A stretch of 64,000 bases of DNA from a bacterium (GTDB lineage Bacteria; Actinomycetota; Acidimicrobiia; Spongiisociales; ZC4RG35), in the NCBI GenBank assembly GCA_028819345.1, contig JAPPLW010000082.1, positions 1-64,000 on the forward strand, given 5' to 3'. Position 1 is the stretch's first letter. Every line of letters starts with the position of its first letter. Made by a program: the position numbers and the translations under genes. The notes under the pieces were generated by a model. That model was given only the letters and a program-made list of their open reading frames with translations. It was not told the DNA's origin and searched no databases. Positions 38,389-47,713 of the stretch are shown here, in pieces.

Positions 38389-39396
38389 TCAGTGCTCGGC
38401 GGCAGGCTCGTCAGCCGCCTCTTCCTCCGGTCCGGCCTCTTCGGGCGCCGGCTCCTCGTCGCCCTGGACGAGCCCGCACTCGATCAGGGTCTGGTCGGGG
38501 TCGGCGCCGCCGTAGCGGATCCTTTCGAACGCCACCACGGCGGCGATCTCCTCCGCGGTGTTGCTGGTGGCGAATCCGGGCATGAATCCTCCCCCGCCCA
38601 CGGTGGCGGCCAGGTCCCCGTAGGTGTCTATGCCGGCTTCCTGGAAGCCTCCGGTGGCCAGCGTCACCCACTCGATGTGATCAGGACAACTGGAGAAGGT
38701 GGTGAGCACGGTGGCGAGCGCGGGCCCCACCCCGCCTTCGCCGTTGGCGCCGTGGCAGCCCGCGCAGGTCTCGAACACCGCCTCCCCAACCGCCAGGATG
38801 TTCCCGGTGGTGTCCACGGCGCGTCCGGTGAACTCGCTACCGTCGCAGTTGACCACCGTGGAGTCGAGCCGGTTGACGGCCAGTTCCACTCCTCCCTCCA
38901 CGCACCCCGCCCGGGCCGAGTTGCCGGCCAGGTACAGCAGCCCGATCACCGGGATGACCAGAAACAGGGCGGCCAGCCATCGGGGAAGGGTGGATGAGGT
39001 CCTCTCGGTCAGGCGGGCGGTGGGCACCGACACCACCACCGGGAAGGAGACCGCCTCCTTGGTGGTCACCTCCGAGGGAGGAGGGAGGGGCGCCGCCGCC
39101 GGTGCCGGCGCGGCGGCAGGAACGGGCGTAGGCGCAGACGGAGCAGGCGGTGCGGGCGCGGCTGCCGGGGCCGGCGGAGGTTCGGGGGCAGCCGCCGGAG
39201 CGGGCGCAGGCTCGGGGGCCGGAGCCGGAGCCGGGGCGGATGCGGAGGGCGAGGGTGAGCCGCCGCCGCCCGCCCAGGCCGCCAGGACCTCCTCGACCGG
39301 GACGCCGTCCGCGGCGGCCCGGGCCTCGGCGGAGCGCTGCACCAGGATCTCGGGTGCTCCCAACACCTCCGCGGCTCTCGCCAGGTTCTCACTCAT
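38389..39396 (-). CDS. Membrane-anchored monoheme cytochrome c with N-terminal shared segment (third gene of the CcoN-like operon)
   Basis: This 335-aa protein has three parts. Residues 14-44 are a predicted helical segment, LVQRSAEARAAADGVPVEEV, ending AWAGGG. Residues about 45-110 are a Pro/Ala linker. One transmembrane helix (about 139-157) leads to a periplasmic cytochrome c domain with CAGCH (211-215) and a probable axial Met in GGFMPGF. Extra Cys (165, 184, 237) could form disulfides. The tail is acidic (Glu/Ala). With the CcoO-like and CcoN-like genes it forms a cbb3-like set in which this would be the CcoP counterpart, but it has one heme, not two. It overlaps the CcoO-like gene by 8 bp. 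Confidence 0.85.
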   Translation of the reverse strand: MSENLARAAEVLGAPEILVQRSAEARAAADGVPVEEVLAAWAGGGGSPSPSASAPAPAPAPEPAPAPAAAPEPPPAPAAAPAPPAPSAPTPVPAAAPAPAAAPLPPPSEVTTKEAVSFPVVVSVPTARLTERTSSTLPRWLAALFLVIPVIGLLYLAGNSARAGCVEGGVELAVNRLDSTVVNCDGSEFTGRAVDTTGNILAVGEAVFETCAGCHGANGEGGVGPALATVLTTFSSCPDHIEWVTLATGGFQEAGIDTYGDLAATVGGGGFMPGFATSNTAEEIAAVVAFERIRYGGADPDQTLIECGLVQGDEEPAPEEAGPEEEAADEPAAEH

Positions 39397-40207
39397 CGGG
39401 TCCGCTCCCGGTAAGGACCCGGGACTCCGACAGGTAGGCCACCAGCGAGTCCATCCAGTCGCCTCCATAGGTGAGGTGTCCTCCCTCTCCGGAGAGGGTC
39501 GCCTCGATCTCGGTCGGGGACATCCGACTCCCCACATTGGCCAGGTCGGGACCGTAGCGCTGGCGGCCGATCACCTGGTTGGTGTCCGACAGCGTCACGC
39601 CACCCACCCCGGCCAGGGCGGCGAGTTGGGCGTCGGCGACCACGGGACGGACCATCTGGGTGTGGCAGCCGGCGCATCCCTCCGCCAGGTAGACCTCCTG
39701 GCCCTGCAAAGCGGATGCGGTGTAGGGGATCTCCGAGTGCACAGCCCCGCGGCCCGTTCCGGAAAAGGCGGGAAGCACCAGCGTGACGACCAGGCAGAGG
39801 ACCAGAAGGGTGGTGGCCCCCAACAGGTACCGGAAGGGCCGGTCGACCCGGCCGGTGAGCACGGGGGGAGGGCCGTCCGCCATCAGAGTTGCGGCAGGGG
39901 CCGCGGGCGCGGCGGGCGCAGGGGTGGCGGGGGCGGGAGACGCGGCCGCGGTCGGGGAGGGCGGCGCCGCGGCAGGAGTGGGAGTCGGTGGAGGCGCGGC
40001 CGGTTCGGGCGGCGGAGGCGCTGCAGTCGGCGCAGGCTCAGGCGCCGGAGCCGAGGAGGGCGGGGGCGCCGAGCCGCCTCCGGCCCAGGCCTGGAGGACC
40101 TCGTCGACCGAGACGCCCTCTGCCGCAGCCCGCGCCTCGGCGGAGCGCTGCACCAACTCGGCGGGTGCGCCCACCACTTGGGCGGCGGCCTCGAGAAACT
40201 CGCTCAT
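39389..40207 (-). CDS. CcoO-like monoheme cytochrome c with the shared N-terminal segment
   Basis: This 272-aa protein repeats the layout of its neighbour. Residues 14-44 carry LVQRSAEARAAAEGVSVDEV and AWAGGG, followed by a long Pro/Ala linker (about 45-105), one transmembrane helix (about 126-147) and a cytochrome domain. The heme motif CAGCHTQMVRP (178-188) and RYGPDLANVGSR are signatures of CcoO, the cbb3 oxidase subunit II. Authentic CcoO has neither the N-terminal segment nor the linker. The start overlaps the CcoN-like stop by 4 bp (ATGA). Confidence 0.87.
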   Translation of the reverse strand: MSEFLEAAAQVVGAPAELVQRSAEARAAAEGVSVDEVLQAWAGGGSAPPPSSAPAPEPAPTAAPPPPEPAAPPPTPTPAAAPPSPTAAASPAPATPAPAAPAAPAATLMADGPPPVLTGRVDRPFRYLLGATTLLVLCLVVTLVLPAFSGTGRGAVHSEIPYTASALQGQEVYLAEGCAGCHTQMVRPVVADAQLAALAGVGGVTLSDTNQVIGRQRYGPDLANVGSRMSPTEIEATLSGEGGHLTYGGDWMDSLVAYLSESRVLTGSGPDE

Positions 40208-41703
40208 TCCTCTTCCCTCGCCTCGGTCAAATCCTCTTCCTCCTCGGAGGAACCATCGGCCGGGACCAGGGTGAAGACCTCCTGGTTGGCGGGGCGCCCG
40301 GAGGTGAAGGTCCGCAGAACGGCCAGGCAGAACGAGATCTGGCCCAGAAGGGTCACCAGTCCCGACAGTATGGACAATCCGAGGAGCAGCGAGGCCAGCC
40401 CCACCAGATCCCCCCAGCCTTCCCCTGTGGGGCTGATCCCTCCGAAAGACCCTCCCGCCCAACCGTACCCGGCAACCAGGCCCGCCCCCACCAGCAGAGC
40501 GGAAGTCAGCCCCACCCCCCAGAACGTGAGACGCAGATGCAGCCGGGCCAGTCCCTGACTCGCCAGGGTGCGGCCGGTGATGGAGGGCAGCGCTTGATAC
40601 GACCAGGCGGCCACCAGAAGCCCTCCCGCCCCGAACAGGGTCGCGTACAGGACCCCGTCCCAGAAGGGGGTCAGCCCAACCACCGCCGCCGCGGACCGGA
40701 CCGTGCCGAAGCTGGTCAGAGCGGCGGTCATCAAGGCGAAGAAGGCGCCGGCCAGGGCGGCGGCCACCACCGGTCGGTCATGCCTCTCCGCCCAGACCTC
40801 CTCGGTGGTCAGAGAGAGGTTGGCGGCGTTTGCCAGGGCCGAGACGGGCAGGGCCAGCGTCATCAGGAAAGCCACGGCCTCCAGCCAATCGGGGACCGGG
40901 CCGAAGACCAACGGGCCGGCGCCCCCCCACGCCGCGGCGAACGCCAGGGACCAGAAGCCCACCCTTGCCAGTTGCCTGCTGGCGAGAGGGTTTCCCGTCT
41001 CCTTCACCAGCGCGTAGTAGGCGAGGCCGATGCCCATACCCACCACCCACAGGTTGGAAAGACCGAATAACGACACCGACTCGGACATGGCGCCCGCCAT
41101 CGCCGAGGGAGCGGGAACAGCCCCCACCAGGTAGAGAAGCGGCAGCCAGACCACCCCGGCCAGGGCGTACCAAAGGGAGACGAAGATGTTGGGCTCCTGT
41201 CGATGGCGAACCGTGGAGACGGTCACCACCATGGGCGCCAACAGGGTGGCCAGAAGCGGCAGGGAGACCCACCATGGCAGTGAGAAGGGACCGGTTCCGT
41301 CCCCTCCGCCCAGCAGCACCACCAGTGCCCCGACCACTGTCACCCCGGCGGTTCCCGCCCCGCCCGCCAGGGCCAGGGCCTCGCCGCGCATCCGGACCCC
41401 GGTGAGCCGGGGCAGGATGTAGTAGACTCCGCCCGCCATGGACAGGGTGAGCCAACCGATCACGGCCAGCAAGAGAGCGATGGGGCGGATGCGGCCGTAC
41501 GAGAAAGGCCCGGTCAGGGTCCCCGGGAAGCGCAGTTCCACCATCCCGGCCACCCATACAATCCCGGCCGCCGCGAGGAAGGCGGTGGAGGCGATGATGT
41601 GCCACTTGGCGGCCGTGTCTCCGGCCAGCCCATCCGACCATGCGGCGTAGCGCCCGACCCGACTGATCGGGCTTCCAGATTGATTATTCTTGGTTGTACT
41701 CAG
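40204..41703 (-). CDS. CcoN-like (heme-copper oxidase subunit I) homologue lacking all heme and copper ligands
   Basis: This 499-aa protein has about 12 membrane helices and clear CcoN-type landmarks: YGRIRPIALLLAVIGW, RHRQEPNIFVSLWYALAGVV, PVPDW and YQALPSITGR. Every ligand of CcoN is changed. The low-spin heme His in GRLRPLH is Ala; the Cu His in YGHN is Leu (FGLSN); the HH pair before LPDW is Leu-Val (AGPLVFGPVPDW); and the HVH motif has no His (FWDGVLYATLFGAGG). It cannot bind heme b, b3 or CuB in the known way. It leads an operon with two c-type cytochromes and probably anchors them. The start is uncertain: CTG 41703 (STTKNNQSG, GGGGGT upstream) or TTG 41796. Confidence 0.85.
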   Translation of the reverse strand: MSTTKNNQSGSPISRVGRYAAWSDGLAGDTAAKWHIIASTAFLAAAGIVWVAGMVELRFPGTLTGPFSYGRIRPIALLLAVIGWLTLSMAGGVYYILPRLTGVRMRGEALALAGGAGTAGVTVVGALVVLLGGGDGTGPFSLPWWVSLPLLATLLAPMVVTVSTVRHRQEPNIFVSLWYALAGVVWLPLLYLVGAVPAPSAMAGAMSESVSLFGLSNLWVVGMGIGLAYYALVKETGNPLASRQLARVGFWSLAFAAAWGGAGPLVFGPVPDWLEAVAFLMTLALPVSALANAANLSLTTEEVWAERHDRPVVAAALAGAFFALMTAALTSFGTVRSAAAVVGLTPFWDGVLYATLFGAGGLLVAAWSYQALPSITGRTLASQGLARLHLRLTFWGVGLTSALLVGAGLVAGYGWAGGSFGGISPTGEGWGDLVGLASLLLGLSILSGLVTLLGQISFCLAVLRTFTSGRPANQEVFTLVPADGSSEEEEDLTEAREEE

Positions 41704-41911
41704 AGCGCTACCCCCGGGTGCCCCGGAAACGAAAGGCCTGCCATGAGAGCCGCTCCGAAAGATAGCAAGATTGAAACCACCCTCGGCGCGAGTCAACGCC
41801 GGGTGACGGGAGCGGATCGGCTGTGATGGCCGGAATCGTCATAACTTTGTTTGAAACCCGCCCCGGTGTAAAAATAGGAATGGTTCGACCCCGGAAGGCC
41901 ATCTGGTAGAG

Positions 41912-42541
41912 ATGCACCGCATCGCCGCTATAAACGACCGAACACGGATCCTCATCGGGTCGTCGTCGTTGCTCGTAGGCACGGGGCTCATGGCCGTGGC
42001 GGTGCTCTGGGTCCACTACTCCGCGCTGCCCCAGACAGAGATCGTCAACGGGGTGTCCACGGCGGTGGTGGTGGACTATTTCAACTGGATACCCAGGGGC
42101 TGGTTCTGGAAGAGCATCGGGTACCTCGCTGCGCTGGGGGCCTCCCAGATGATGCTCCTGGGCGCGGCCCTCCTGTGGGTGCTGAACCAGAGGATGACCT
42201 GGGCCCGGGCCTCCTTCGCCGCGTTCCTGATCTGGATAGAGCTGGTGCTGGTGTTCGGGATCGTTCCCTCCGAGTGGCTCAACCTCTCCCAGACCGACCT
42301 CGACTGGTCGAGCCAGCGGATCGCCTTCAGCATCCCGCCGTTCCTGATGCTGGGCAACGACGTCGCGATCAGTTGGGCCGCCATCAAGGACTCCATATCC
42401 GGCGCCTACAACCTGGGCACCCTGGCGGGCGCCGGCGTTGTCGCCTACCTGCTGCAGCAGATCTACAAGCCGCCCAAGAAGCGCGCCGCAGCCGCCCGGA
42501 CCTCCCCGTACGGTCGCCCGCTTGTGAAAGGGGATGGCTGA
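41912..42541 (+). CDS. Membrane protein, first gene of the cytochrome b/Rieske operon
   Basis: This 209-aa protein has about four membrane helices (near 13-35, 69-90, 97-116, 160-181) and a basic C-terminal tail (KPPKKRAAAARTS). I do not recognise the family. It has no heme or iron-sulfur motif. Its stop codon overlaps the ferredoxin start by one base (TGATG), so it is probably the membrane anchor of the ferredoxin. The gene is divergent from the CcoN-like operon; about 115-208 bp lie between the starts, depending on the CcoN-like start. Confidence 0.7.
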   Translation: MHRIAAINDRTRILIGSSSLLVGTGLMAVAVLWVHYSALPQTEIVNGVSTAVVVDYFNWIPRGWFWKSIGYLAALGASQMMLLGAALLWVLNQRMTWARASFAAFLIWIELVLVFGIVPSEWLNLSQTDLDWSSQRIAFSIPPFLMLGNDVAISWAAIKDSISGAYNLGTLAGAGVVAYLLQQIYKPPKKRAAAARTSPYGRPLVKGDG

Positions 42542-42990
42542 TGCCCCGCGGAGTTGTGGATGAGACCCCTCCGTTCCGCGACGACTACCAACTCGCGCTG
42601 GTGGAAAACGACTTCTATGCGGGAAAGATCCGTCCCAAACAGTTCCTCCACATCGACCAGTCCGAGTGCATCATCTGCGAGGGCTGCGTGGACATCTGCC
42701 CGTGGAAGTGCATCTTCTATCTGTCCATGGAGGCCATCGACGAGGCGGTCAACGTCGACGACCCGAGGGAGGACACCACCAACTACGGTTTCTTCGTCGT
42801 GGACGAGAACGAGTGCACCCGATGCGCCCTGTGCATCGACCGGTGCCCCACCGGCGTCATCTCCCTCGGTAAGTTCGAAGGGTCCCTGGCCGCCCAGGCT
42901 GAGGAGATGGGACTCAACCAGGCGCCGTGGGAGGTCGACACCGGCCAGAGGGACTTCAAGCACGGGTACACCTACGGAATGCGCTGGTAA
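42541..42990 (+). CDS. 2x[4Fe-4S] ferredoxin-like protein of the cytochrome b operon
   Basis: This 149-aa protein has two 4Fe-4S motifs: CIICEGCVDICP (C43, C46, C49, C53) and CTRCALCIDRCP (C92, C95, C98, C102), 45 residues apart, with an insert between them. The first has an extra Cys57 (CPWKC). The N- and C-terminal extensions (FYAGKIRPKQFLH, DFKHGYTYGMRW) are unusual for a free ferredoxin and suggest a fixed subunit. A quinol:cytochrome c reductase does not need a ferredoxin, so this indicates an extra electron entry or exit, or a structural role. No signal peptide, so it lies on the cytoplasmic side. Confidence 0.9.
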   Translation: MPRGVVDETPPFRDDYQLALVENDFYAGKIRPKQFLHIDQSECIICEGCVDICPWKCIFYLSMEAIDEAVNVDDPREDTTNYGFFVVDENECTRCALCIDRCPTGVISLGKFEGSLAAQAEEMGLNQAPWEVDTGQRDFKHGYTYGMRW

Positions 42991-42999
42991 GGAGAGAGT

Positions 43000-43788
43000 G
43001 TGAGCTCACGTAACGGCATTCACGGTCTGCTGACCAAGGCCCGCACCCATGCGACCGACATGATGGGACGGATGTGGTCGGGCCAGTTCATGGACTCGAT
43101 GCTCCGACCGGGATCGCCCTTCAAGAAGGGCTACACCGACACCCCCCGCAACCGGTCCTACGTGATCATGAACAACGTGCTCTACCACCTCCACCCGGTG
43201 AAGGTGAAGCGTCACGGCGTGAAGCTCTCCTACACCCTGTGCCTGGGAGGATTGAGCTTCTTCCTCTTCATTCTCCTGACCGTCACCGGCATCTTCCTGA
43301 TGTTCTACTACGCCCCCACCGCCGAACGGGCCTACATCGACGTGCAGGCGCTGTCGACCGACATCGCCTTCGGCTCCCTCATGAGGAACATGCACCGCTG
43401 GGGCGCCCACCTGATGGTCCTCACCGTGTTCCTCCACATGTCGAGGGTCTTCTATCACGGCGCCTACAAGCCTCCCCGGGAGTTCAACTGGGTGGTGGGC
43501 GTGATCCTGTTGCTCCTGACCCTCCTCCTCTCCTTCACCGGCTATCTGCTCCCCTGGGACCAACTGGCCCTGTGGGCGGTCACGGTGGGAACCAACATGG
43601 CCGGCTTCGTCCCGGTGATCGGCGCGCAGGTGAAATTCGCCCTTTTGGGCGGGGTGGAGGTGACGGCGGGGACGCTCCTGCGATGGTATGTGCTCCATGT
43701 GCTATTCCTGCCGTTCATCATCGTGATCTTCCTGGCGGTCCACTTCTGGAGAGTCCGCAAGGACGGCGGCATCTCCGGACCCCTATAA
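43000..43788 (+). CDS. Cytochrome b, N-terminal half (b6/PetB-like)
   Basis: This 262-aa protein has four membrane helices. The heme bL/bH ligands are H132 and H146 in [20 protein letters not shown], and H233 and H248 in [20 protein letters not shown]; the second pair has 14 residues between, as in b6. C81 in YTLCLGGL lines up with the Cys that carries heme c-i in b6 and in Bacillus QcrB, so a third, covalently bound heme is possible. With the next gene it makes a split (b6 + IV) cytochrome b that oxidises menaquinol. GTG start with GGAGAG upstream. Confidence 0.93.
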
Positions 43789-43808: not shown

Positions 43809-44747
43809 GTGCCTGAGATCCCCGAAGAACTCCTGAGGCGTTCCGCCGAAGCGAAGGCCAAGGCGCTGGGCCTGCCCGTGGAACAGGTCCTTGCCGAGAT
43901 GCGCGGAGAAGCCCCGGTCGCCGAGGTCCCGGCCGAGTCGGTGGACGTGCCCCGCCCGACCTTCGTTCCCAGCCCTCCCCCGCCTTCCGTCCCCGAAATC
44001 CCGCCCGAACCCCAGCCGCCCGACCCGGCCTCCGCCCCGCCTCCGGCCATCACCGCCGTGGCTGAGACCCCACCCGCCGCGGCGGAAGGACCTGCTCCCG
44101 CGGTGGAGGAACCGGCCCCCGCCGCCCCGGAGGTCCCCGACAACGGCGCAGGGAACGGCCGGCTGGCTGCCACCGTCTCGGTCCGACCGTCCGTGCCCCC
44201 GGCCGGCGTGCCGGAGGGGGTGCGCCACCAGCGATTGCTCACGGTGGTCAAGGCCCGGGCGATCCAGCAGGTCAAGGCCGACCCCACCGACAAGGTGAAC
44301 ACCTGGCCTCATTTGATGATCGCCGAGTTCACCGCCCTCCTGGCGATGACCGCCTTCCTTCTGGTCCTCTCCACCATTCTCCAGGCGCCCCTGCTGGAGG
44401 CGGCCAACTTCAACGCCACTCCCAACCCCTCCAAGGCCCCCTGGTACTTCCTGGGTCTCCAGGAGATGCTCTCCTATTTCGATCCGCAGATCGCCGGGGT
44501 GACCGTGCCCACCGTGATCGGGATCGTGGGATTCATGATGATTCCCTACATCGACCGCAATCCGTCCACCCGTCCCTCGGACCGCAAGCTCGCCATCATG
44601 CTGTTCACCATCTTCCTGGCGGGATCGGCGACTCTCACCATCCTGGGAGTGCTCTTCCGGGGCCCGGGATTCAACTTCGCCTATCCGTGGGTTGACGGGG
44701 TGTTCTTCGACGACCTCAAAGACTGGGTCGACTTCGGTGGCCACTGA
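43809..44747 (+). CDS. Cytochrome b, C-terminal half (subunit IV-like), with shared N-terminal segment
   Basis: This 312-aa protein begins with PEELLRRSAEAKAKALGLPV followed by EQVLAEMRGE, the same helical segment as in the two minus-strand cytochromes, then a Pro/Ala/Glu linker (about 35-120). The remainder has three membrane helices and the quinol-site region NPSKAPWYFLGLQEMLSYFD. The PEWY motif of most cytochrome b proteins is APWY here, so the conserved Glu is missing, as in some other bacterial types. It completes the split cytochrome b. GTG start at 43809. Confidence 0.9.
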   Translation: MPEIPEELLRRSAEAKAKALGLPVEQVLAEMRGEAPVAEVPAESVDVPRPTFVPSPPPPSVPEIPPEPQPPDPASAPPPAITAVAETPPAAAEGPAPAVEEPAPAAPEVPDNGAGNGRLAATVSVRPSVPPAGVPEGVRHQRLLTVVKARAIQQVKADPTDKVNTWPHLMIAEFTALLAMTAFLLVLSTILQAPLLEAANFNATPNPSKAPWYFLGLQEMLSYFDPQIAGVTVPTVIGIVGFMMIPYIDRNPSTRPSDRKLAIMLFTIFLAGSATLTILGVLFRGPGFNFAYPWVDGVFFDDLKDWVDFGGH

Positions 44748-44769: not shown

Positions 44770-45636
44770 ATGGGCGGCGTCGAGCTGATCATCATCGGTG
44801 TGGCCGCGGTGGCGATCGCCGCGGCGGTGGGAGCGTTCACCATCGCCTTCCGCCGAGCCGAGCCCGACTCGGCCTCCCTCTGGCCCAAACGGCTGGAGCG
44901 CCGGGCGCGCCTTGCCGACCGTTCCACCCCGACCATGGACGTCGTGGTGGAGTCCCCGCCCGAGGCCGAGGAGACGCCCGATGAGGTCGAGGAGGTGGCG
45001 GCCGCCGTCGAAGAGGTGGCGGCCGAGGAGGTGCTGGCGCCCATAACCGAGACCCAGGTGATCGTGGAGGCCTCCCCCGAGGAGGTGGGAGTCACCCGCC
45101 GCCAGTTCTTCAACCGCTCTTTGGCCGCCATGTCGGTGGCGTGGTTCGGCATCATGGGAATCGAGATCCTGGCCTTCTTGTGGCCGAAGATAAGCGGCGG
45201 CTTCGGCAGCGACGTGGACGCGGGGAACGCCGCCGACATCGTGCCGGAGATGACCGACGCGGCCGGTCTCATCACACCGGCCTTCATCCCCGACGCGCGG
45301 GCCTACGTGGTACCGGCGCCTGTCAAGATGAGCGAGCAGTTCGCCGGCAAGGACGTCGAGGCCGGAGGGCTCATGGCCCTCTACCAACGTTGCGTCCACC
45401 TGGGATGCCGTGTCCCCTGGTGTGACGACTCCCAGGGATTCGAGTGCCCGTGCCACGGATCCAAGTACAACTCGATCGGAGAGTATTTCGCCGGGCCCGC
45501 CCCCCGGAACCTGGACCGGTTCGCGGTCCACATCTCCGAGGACGGGCGGTTGATTATCAGGACCGGAGTGATCGTGGAGTCTCCCCGAGCGATCGCCCAG
45601 TCCGTGTCGTATCCGCAAGGCCCCTCCTGCATTTAG
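44770..45636 (+). CDS. Rieske 2Fe-2S protein with two membrane helices
   Basis: This 288-aa protein has a first transmembrane helix (about 4-26), a Glu-rich cytoplasmic linker (about 60-105), a second helix after TRRQFFNRS (about 115-137) and a periplasmic Rieske domain. The cluster ligands are C208 and H210 (CVHLGC) and C226... H229 (CPCHGS), with the usual second Cys pair for the disulfide. It moves electrons from menaquinol at cytochrome b to the c-type cytochromes. Extra helices are typical of actinobacterial QcrA. Starts 22 bp after subunit IV. Confidence 0.94.
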
Positions 45637-45643
45637 GGAAGTA

Positions 45644-47350
45644 ATGGACTCCACGCTGGTAATCACCCTGGTGCTGGTAGGGGCGGTGATCTGGCTCTCC
45701 TTCCTGGGAGTGGCCGCCCTCAGGTCCCGCCGCCGGGAGGGAATCCCTCCCAACCAGGTGCCGGGAATCACCGACGATGCCCTCGAGACCCGCCGGCTGG
45801 AGCGCATCCAGCAGGGGGCGGTGCTCCTCTCGGCCTTCCTGGCGGTCGGCCTGGCGGTGTACTACCTGAGCGAGACCGACCGTCAGTTGGGTTTCGTCGA
45901 CCAGTTCCACGAGGAGTCGGTGGAGCGGGGCGCGGCGTTGGTGGGCCCCGGCGAGGCCGACTGCTGGAGCTGCCACGGACCCAACGGGGTGGGTGGCGTG
46001 GCCAGCTACGTGGAGAAGCGGACCGGGGTGAGCGTGTCCTGGGCGGCCCCGGCCCTCAACGACATCTTCTTCCGCTATGACCGGGACATCATCTCCTACT
46101 GGGTGACCTACGGACGGGGCAACAGTCCCATGCCTCCCTGGGGAACGGTGGGAGGGGGCCCCATGAACGAGCAGCAGGTGCAGGACATCGTCAACTACCT
46201 GGAGAGCATCCAGATCCCCCAGCAGGAGGCCCTCCGCAAGACCGACGGGATCGTGGTAGGCCAGCTGAGCACCCTGGAGAACGCCGACCAGGCTCTGGAG
46301 AGGGCCATCGTCGAGCAGCGCCAATTGATCGCCGACATAGCAGACGCCCCGCGTCACGCCGAGACCCTGGCTGACCTGGTAGCCCTGGCCAAGCGGGCCC
46401 TCGAGCTGTCGGACCGGGGAATCGACCGGGACGGCGACAACCTGTCCGACATCTCCGAGACGACCATCTCCGAGCTGACCGCCACGGCCGCCTCCCTGTT
46501 CGACTTCTCCGAGATCGAGGCGTGGACCTTCGATCCCCAGAATCCCGCCACCGACGGCCGGCCCGACGCGGACGTCGCCGACCACGCCATCTCGGTCCTG
46601 GAGTCGCTGGTGCCCCGGGCGCCGATCCTCGAGTTGCGCATGGAGTCCATCAGAGCGGCGTTGGCGGCCGAGGACGAGGTGGACACCGATGGAGACGGCC
46701 TGTCGGACCGGGCCGAGAGGGTGATCACCGCCGAGTTGGCCGCATCCCGGACCGCACTGCGCCCCAACACCCTGACCGTGGTCAACCTGGACCCAGAGCG
46801 CGCTTCTTCCGGCGGGGGAATCAGCGACGACCAGGCAGCCGCCACCGCCATCTCCGGCATGGAGGCTGCTTCCATTAACCTGACCGTGCGGACCGAGAAC
46901 GCCGAGAGGTTGCTCGGACCGGCCCGGGCCGGTCTCGAGGAACTGCTGGACGCCCAGGTCGAACGCAAATGGGAGATATCTGTGGAGGGGGTGGCGCACG
47001 CCGCCTTCTTCGGCGACATCGATCGCGCCGAGCGGGCGGTGGGGGTGTTCACCGGCTACTGCGCCCGCTGCCACACCTCGGGCTGGTCGGCGGGGACTCC
47101 GTATGCGGCCCAGCCCGGATCGGGAGGGTTCGGGCCGGCGGTGTGGAAGGGCAGGCCGCGGGTACAGTTCATTTTCAAGGAGGACCTCCGCGACTTTCTG
47201 CTGGTGGGAGCGGTGGCCGACCAACCCTACGGGGTGAGCGGCTTCGGGAACGGGCAGATGCCCGCCTTCGGAGCGGTGCTGTCAAGCGACGACCTGGACC
47301 TCTTGGTGGACTACCTTTGGGCAGGCGACCTCAACGGCAAGGGGAACTGA
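45644..47350 (+). CDS. Diheme cytochrome c with calcium-loop motifs between the hemes
   Basis: This 568-aa protein has two N-terminal hydrophobic segments (about 5-26 and 58-77) and two heme sites: CWSCH (107-111) with axial Met in SPMPPWG, and CARCH (473-477) with Met in GQMPAFG. The 300-residue middle part is helical and holds two EF-hand/thrombospondin-like calcium loops, DRDGDNLSD (261-269) and DTDGDGLSD (347-355). It probably takes the place of cytochrome c1/QcrC as electron acceptor of the Rieske protein. Its long helical insert with calcium loops is not a feature of known c1 or cc proteins. Starts 7 bp after the Rieske stop. Confidence 0.9.
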   Translation: MDSTLVITLVLVGAVIWLSFLGVAALRSRRREGIPPNQVPGITDDALETRRLERIQQGAVLLSAFLAVGLAVYYLSETDRQLGFVDQFHEESVERGAALVGPGEADCWSCHGPNGVGGVASYVEKRTGVSVSWAAPALNDIFFRYDRDIISYWVTYGRGNSPMPPWGTVGGGPMNEQQVQDIVNYLESIQIPQQEALRKTDGIVVGQLSTLENADQALERAIVEQRQLIADIADAPRHAETLADLVALAKRALELSDRGIDRDGDNLSDISETTISELTATAASLFDFSEIEAWTFDPQNPATDGRPDADVADHAISVLESLVPRAPILELRMESIRAALAAEDEVDTDGDGLSDRAERVITAELAASRTALRPNTLTVVNLDPERASSGGGISDDQAAATAISGMEAASINLTVRTENAERLLGPARAGLEELLDAQVERKWEISVEGVAHAAFFGDIDRAERAVGVFTGYCARCHTSGWSAGTPYAAQPGSGGFGPAVWKGRPRVQFIFKEDLRDFLLVGAVADQPYGVSGFGNGQMPAFGAVLSSDDLDLLVDYLWAGDLNGKGN

Positions 47351-47353
47351 GCC

Positions 47354-47713
47354 ATGCGTGAACTGTTTCGATCCCTGCTGTCGGCAAACCTCTTCGTCAC
47401 CGGCGTCATCCTCTTCCTGACCTCGATCCTGGTCTTCTACGGCACGGTCTACCTGCTGAACTACACCAACCTGGGGAAAAAACTGGCCTTCCTGGTGACC
47501 GGAGCGGGCACCGCCGCCTGGATGACCATCGGCAGCCTGCTCTTCGTCCTCTACGCTCCCCGCGGTCCCCGGCCCGTGAACATAGAGGGACTCAACGCCT
47601 TCGAGGTGCGCATCATCCCCATCACCTTCATGGTGGTCTCGGCGGTGGTGTTCATCGGCTTCCTCGTGGCTCTCCACCAATACGAAGAAGCCCGCGAGAA
47701 AGCCGATCTCTGA
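47354..47713 (+). CDS. Small three-helix membrane protein at the end of the cytochrome operon
   Basis: This 119-aa protein has three predicted membrane helices (about 12-35, 44-65, 88-108). I recognise no family and see no cofactor motif. ATG lies 3 bp after the cytochrome c stop, so it is translated with the complex and is probably a small accessory subunit. Confidence 0.7.
   Translation: MRELFRSLLSANLFVTGVILFLTSILVFYGTVYLLNYTNLGKKLAFLVTGAGTAAWMTIGSLLFVLYAPRGPRPVNIEGLNAFEVRIIPITFMVVSAVVFIGFLVALHQYEEAREKADL

Follow-up and report, generated by a model that had tools for sequence, protein, structure and literature searches.

dCcoN, a homologue of the cbb3 oxidase subunit CcoN that has none (0/6) of the invariant His ligands for heme b, heme b3 and CuB, is most likely a conserved pseudo-oxidase subunit that belongs with complex III. 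Its gene lies in the window (the whole stretch of 64,000 nucleotides analyzed here) and is followed by genes for a CcoO-like and a CcoP-like cytochrome c. Divergent from these three genes is a seven-gene cytochrome bc operon, with which they form a pair (Table 1).

Table 1. Genes of the dCcoN cluster and of the divergent cytochrome bc operon in the window
Feature	Position	Strand	Remarks
CcoP-like membrane-anchored mono-heme cytochrome c	38389..39396	minus	335 aa; PF13442 1.4e-6
CcoO-like membrane-anchored mono-heme cytochrome c (CAGCH)	39389..40207	minus	272 aa; PF02433 FixO E=6.8e-14
dCcoN (ligand-less CcoN homologue, predicted CcoN fold)	40204..41796	minus	530 aa
MP419, conserved membrane protein	41912..42541	plus	first gene of bc operon; conserved in place
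Two-cluster [4Fe-4S] ferredoxin-like subunit (Fer)	42538..42990	plus	Fer4 families
Cytochrome b6-like subunit (ExtP-like)	43000..43788	plus	only PF00033 protein found in genome
Cytochrome b C-terminal half / subunit IV	43809..44747	plus	PF00032; tagged N-terminus
Rieske iron-sulfur protein	44770..45636	plus	PF00355
Di-heme cytochrome c of bc operon	45644..47350	plus	two cytochrome c domains
MP473, small conserved membrane protein	47354..47713	plus	conserved in place

Sequence and predicted fold of dCcoN

The dCcoN frame opens with TTG at 41796, and its N-terminal start is uncertain because the first membrane helix has no good ATG upstream. The protein matches Pfam COX1 (PF00115) over residues 62-446 (E=1.6e-25). 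Its best named model is the NCBIfam CcoN equivalog TIGR00780 (E=1.5e-29), although at 103 bits it falls short of the cut-off of 583 bits. The top sequence matches in the PDB are all CcoN chains of cbb3 oxidases. The AlphaFold model (pLDDT 90.5, pTM 0.90) was compared with the PDB using Foldseek, and the best matches were again CcoN chains (TM 0.81-0.83), which rank above NorB, ba3 and A/B-type oxidases. The PF00115 match and the Foldseek result place dCcoN in the heme-copper oxidase superfamily, with the helical fold of subunit I. A fold outside this superfamily is ruled out by the structural match. An identity as NorB or another nitric oxide reductase was rejected, since CcoN chains outscore NOR chains in sequence and in structure and the ligands are absent.

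The ligand columns were read from an alignment to the CcoN of R. capsulatus and of 9g6b. They are occupied in the window protein by A107, F244, G294, P295, V382 and Y384. The cross-linked K-channel residue Y251 is replaced by Ala (A288 in the window protein), the W203 column holds Ser, and T215 of the K-channel is replaced as well. The whole protein contains five His and one Cys in 530 aa, and no His is close to the centre of any predicted membrane helix. Misalignment of the ligand columns is ruled out by pairwise HMMER, the alignment of homologues, the His census and the structural match.

The same state is seen across the family. An alignment of 138 rows contains 130 that are ligand-less and 8 with five or six ligands, without real intermediates between them. 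Four of the 130 have a single His in a ligand column and the rest have none. The ligand-bearing rows comprise two reference CcoN sequences, five from three further families of the same phylum and one distant NorB-like sequence. The Tyr251 column is mostly W, A, G, L or S in the ligand-less rows, and no His, Cys or Met column that might supply a replacement ligand reaches 50% in the family. Conserved columns are mostly structural Gly, Pro, Trp, Tyr and Arg; at more than 75% conservation, charged residues are limited to R102, R130 and R367, the others being mainly G, P, W and Y. In a quick tree, one change of state splits ligand-bearing from ligand-less sequences, with a branch support of just 67, so a single loss of the ligands is compatible with the tree but not proven.

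The preliminary description of this DNA had proposed homology to CcoN, which the profile searches, the PDB sequences and the structural match all bear out. It had also stated that all six His ligands are gone. The suggested alignment finds no His in any ligand column of dCcoN and adds the loss of Y251 and W203; some of the residue-by-residue assignments were slightly off, while the conclusion of ligand loss was right. The model that it called for gives a heme-copper oxidase fold with a TM of 0.83 to CcoN. Together, the model, the match to CcoN and the missing ligands indicate that dCcoN has a predicted heme-copper oxidase fold with empty metal-ligand positions.

Cytochrome partners, shared tag and divergent bc operon

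The start of the CcoO-like gene (40207) overlaps the stop of dCcoN in an ATGA, and the start of the CcoP-like gene (39396) overlaps the CcoO-like gene by 8 bases. As in cbb3 operons, genes with PF02433 (CcoO) and Cytochrome_CBB3 (CcoP) are adjacent and overlapping, and the arrangement is conserved: wherever the contig extends far enough, CcoO and then CcoP almost always come after dCcoN. Roughly half of the order has a single dCcoN-CcoO fusion protein, typically of 640-690 aa, in which the CxxCH motif of CcoO is intact. A model of the fusion has a pTM of 0.90, and its membrane part again matches CcoN. In the separate CcoO proteins of families f1, f3, f5 and f12, the conserved distal heme Met is replaced by His, and in f7 and two f5 sequences the distal ligand is Gln. 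The fusions and the ligand-bearing sister operons retain the Met. In several families, retuning of the CcoO heme seems to have taken place, and the change from Met to His could lower its potential. At one locus (L146:7093-9237), the ligand-less homologue of CcoN has a cupredoxin domain at its C-terminus in place of a fused CcoO, and it directly adjoins COX2-COX1-COX3.

CcoO, CcoP and subunit IV of the bc operon have a 45-aa N-terminal segment in common (consensus mdellaaaaaalgiPehLlrRSAeARAkaeGvpveevLaewaGea), of which some relatives have as many as five repeats. Among the loci compared, some of which overlap, the tag is carried by 105/105 subunit IV, 144/148 CcoP and 70/90 CcoO ORFs. It occurs hardly anywhere else in those loci, except in truncated copies of the same genes. 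A tag so nearly private to CcoO, CcoP and subunit IV looks as a docking device would be expected to look, and we infer from the sequences that it serves as one. The shared tag and the gene linkage suggest that dCcoN, CcoO, CcoP and the bc subunits form one complex. The tag occurs only four times in the genome, and its fourth carrier, P0001, is a 397-aa membrane protein without a Pfam match (L116:15683-16876, contig C92, minus strand). Its gene is situated some 7 kb from the operon of the caa3 oxidase, and P0001 may link the oxidase to the complex.

The ten-gene arrangement [CcoP-CcoO-dCcoN]<->[MP419-Fer-cytb-subIV-Rieske-diheme-MP473] is preserved throughout the order as well as in family f12. 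MP419 and MP473 have no Pfam or NCBIfam match above cut-off, and the closest NCBIfam model to the window cytochrome b is ExtP of the selenite/tellurite operon. In three farther relatives (L147, L201 and L203), dCcoN and bc-type genes are at most several kb apart, and cytochrome c assembly genes (CcmF or ResB) are found nearby in L147 and L203. No second cytochrome bc complex and no cytochrome b besides the window copy were found in the genome. The only other heme-copper oxidase found there is of the caa3 type, with COX2-cytochrome c, COX3 and CtaG. In many genomes of the order, other contigs encode a further cytochrome b, a paralogue with about 54-59% identity.

Within the order, an orthologous cytochrome b (a match of at least 75% identity, sorted by eye from the hit tables) is present in 110/113 genomes with dCcoN versus 5/25 without it (Fisher p 1.4e-16). 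In the five genomes with the bc operon only, every contig stops immediately before MP419, at the expected start of dCcoN; these are contig breaks, and a real absence of dCcoN is ruled out. In the three with dCcoN only (G038, G077 and G090), dCcoN is close to a contig end, and the two contigs with known length measure 3-4 kb. The association of dCcoN with COX1 in the order is much weaker (p 0.008). A COX1 match is missing in 11/113 dCcoN genomes, most of them incomplete, and the downstream oxidase may therefore vary. This near-exceptionless co-occurrence with the sole bc complex makes complex III the most likely home of dCcoN.

Distribution and selection

Homologues of dCcoN were found in 113/138 genomes of the order and in 151/395 genomes sampled from the class, including the large genus g65 of family f12, and are also present in other classes of the phylum. 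With homologues in more than 100 genomes, a sequencing error or a single decayed copy is ruled out. None of 60 related genomes tested has a CcoN above the curated cut-off. Identity between dCcoN of the order and of f12 is about 19-20%, and the fold columns are conserved. Genomes of f12 (genus g65) are about 1 Mb in size, with a locus GC of 0.34-0.37. The family probably represents Ca. Actinomarinales, for which about 1.1 Mb and a GC of 32.5% have been reported (PMC12008989, PMC7771536). Genome sizes in the order of the source genome are about 1.1-5.4 Mb; this order appears to be UBA5794-like, UBA5794 being a sister order to Ca. Actinomarinales with genomes of 1.39-5.38 Mb (PMC12008989, PMC7771536).

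In comparison with the closest relative, the dN/dS of dCcoN is 0.09, and with a more distant one it is 0.20; both relatives have intact frames, and the frame is therefore under purifying selection. The value against a third relative, 0.25, is inflated because that relative is frameshifted at the N-terminus. At L139 (G110:C56) of a close relative, the dCcoN frame is broken within the N-terminal 36 codons and the membrane part is intact.

These results also bear on the gene context given in the preliminary description. The intact frame and the translational coupling to a CcoO-like gene hold, in keeping with the two dN/dS values and the ATGA overlap. The survey of homologues that it proposed finds both the ligand loss and the operon kept across the order and beyond, and the proposed dN/dS analysis gave the values above for intact-frame relatives. 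Its operon with cytochromes was correct, but the divergent bc operon, which is the main context, had been missed.

Proposed role and relation to known complexes

From the sequences and the models, we consider it fairly probable that dCcoN, CcoO and CcoP form a cofactor-free scaffold module of the adjacent bc complex that relays electrons to the caa3 oxidase. dCcoN would be a cofactor-free descendant of CcoN with the helical fold retained. Reduction of O2 or NO is not expected of it, as the ligands for heme b, heme b3 and CuB are missing. With the CcoO-like and CcoP-like cytochromes, it would make up an accessory module of an unusual bc complex containing a [4Fe-4S] protein, a split cytochrome b, a Rieske protein and a di-heme cytochrome c. 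dCcoN would anchor and orient the c hemes on the outer membrane face, and the tags of CcoO, CcoP and subunit IV, presumably on the cytoplasmic side, would hold the module to the complex. The Rieske protein and the c hemes would carry electrons from quinol to the caa3 oxidase, which is separate. The whole would amount to a bc-cbb3 supercomplex with its oxidase site switched off and its cytochrome relay kept, caa3 doing the O2 chemistry. The absence of metal in dCcoN, the physical assembly and the electron route are all read from sequence, and dCcoN might still bind a heme through residues outside the canonical set. A maintained non-catalytic scaffold had already been put forward in the preliminary description; the conserved ligand loss, the predicted fold and the kept heme motifs of CcoO and CcoP support it.

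Other roles can be envisaged for so complete a protein. The full helical body is retained, though a single-span anchor would do for cytochromes c, and three further parts of the cluster, MP419, MP473 and the Fer subunit, lack an explanation. dCcoN might accordingly be a transport or quinone-binding subunit, in which the emptied pocket and channels carry protons or bind quinone as an extra coupling site. We regard this as unlikely, given that the K-channel residues Y251 and T215 are replaced and that R102, R130 and R367 are the only charged residues conserved above 75%. The module could also serve a different acceptor or donor, such as an extracellular or a nitrogen/sulfur reductase, with the complex III neighbourhood just regulatory. 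The nearness of the cytochrome b to ExtP, the few dCcoN genomes without a COX1 match and the potentially lower potential of CcoO with a distal His would fit such a role. However, it is hard to reconcile with the near-complete co-occurrence of dCcoN and the bc complex, the tag in common with subunit IV and the position of dCcoN beside COX2-COX1-COX3 at L146, and appears quite improbable.

The long maintenance of the gene and of its cytochrome donors would likewise be compatible with a heme-copper enzyme that is still catalytic, using non-canonical ligands for another metal site or another heme ligation. With all six ligands missing, only five His and one Cys in 530 aa, no His deep in a helix and no family column of His, Cys or Met at 50%, we give this very little credence. 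A decayed ccoN, retained merely as a translational hitch-hiker of the downstream cytochrome gene, would explain the ATGA overlap. Yet dN/dS values of 0.09 and 0.20, open frames in about a hundred genomes, the CcoO fusion in about half of the order and fold columns conserved despite about 19-20% identity to f12 make it hardly credible. The reading that we retain is a scaffold module of the bc complex.

To our knowledge, no other member of the heme-copper oxidase superfamily has been retained after losing all its metal ligands. The preliminary description likewise knew of no described scaffold system of this kind, and a search of the open-access PMC literature turned up neither a ligand-less CcoN nor this complex. 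Like CcoN of cbb3 oxidases, dCcoN is homologous over the whole membrane body (TM 0.83) and is followed by CcoO and CcoP homologues; unlike it, dCcoN lacks the six ligands, W203 and the cross-linked Tyr, scores below the cut-off and is paired with a bc operon. In the actinobacterial bcc-aa3 obligate supercomplex, a c-heme relay to an A-type oxidase replaces soluble cytochrome c, as the putative relay would here. That relay, however, is the di-heme QcrC, no CcoN-like subunit is present, and the bc architecture differs in having no 4Fe-4S subunit and an unsplit cytochrome b. The bc1-cbb3 supercomplexes (R. capsulatus 6xkw, P. aeruginosa 8smr) join complex III to a CcoN/O/P-type module with a c-heme relay, which the assembly proposed here would resemble, but their CcoN is an active oxidase, whereas dCcoN has no catalytic site and a separate caa3 oxidase is present. 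The Pseudomonas orphan CcoN4 is also an unusual CcoN in modular use with other CcoO/P, although the CcoN4 isoforms are functional oxidases (PMC5697931) and dCcoN has no ligands for that. The Nitrospina cbb3 oxidase similarly combines fused subunits with altered residues near CuB, but it is still treated as an oxidase and shows no total ligand loss (PMC3578206).

If this reading is true, dCcoN would be a naturally occurring pseudo-oxidase, and supercomplex evolution would here be caught in a frozen state. In these bacteria, automatic annotation as 'cbb3 oxidase' from PF00115 or CcoO/CcoP can be mistaken. We lean towards the broader view that this is a new kind of complex III, a bc complex with a metal-free heme-copper oxidase subunit and CcoO/CcoP as a permanent structural subunit. 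No fewer than two orders of Acidimicrobiia (UBA5794-like and Actinomarinales-like) would have it as a fixed feature, with scattered occurrences in other classes of actinobacteria, and it would give streamlined ocean actinobacteria a complex III. Complex III has been stated to be missing in Actinomarinales (PMC7771536). The same ten-gene cluster in f12 suggests that these widespread ocean bacteria have an unusual one.
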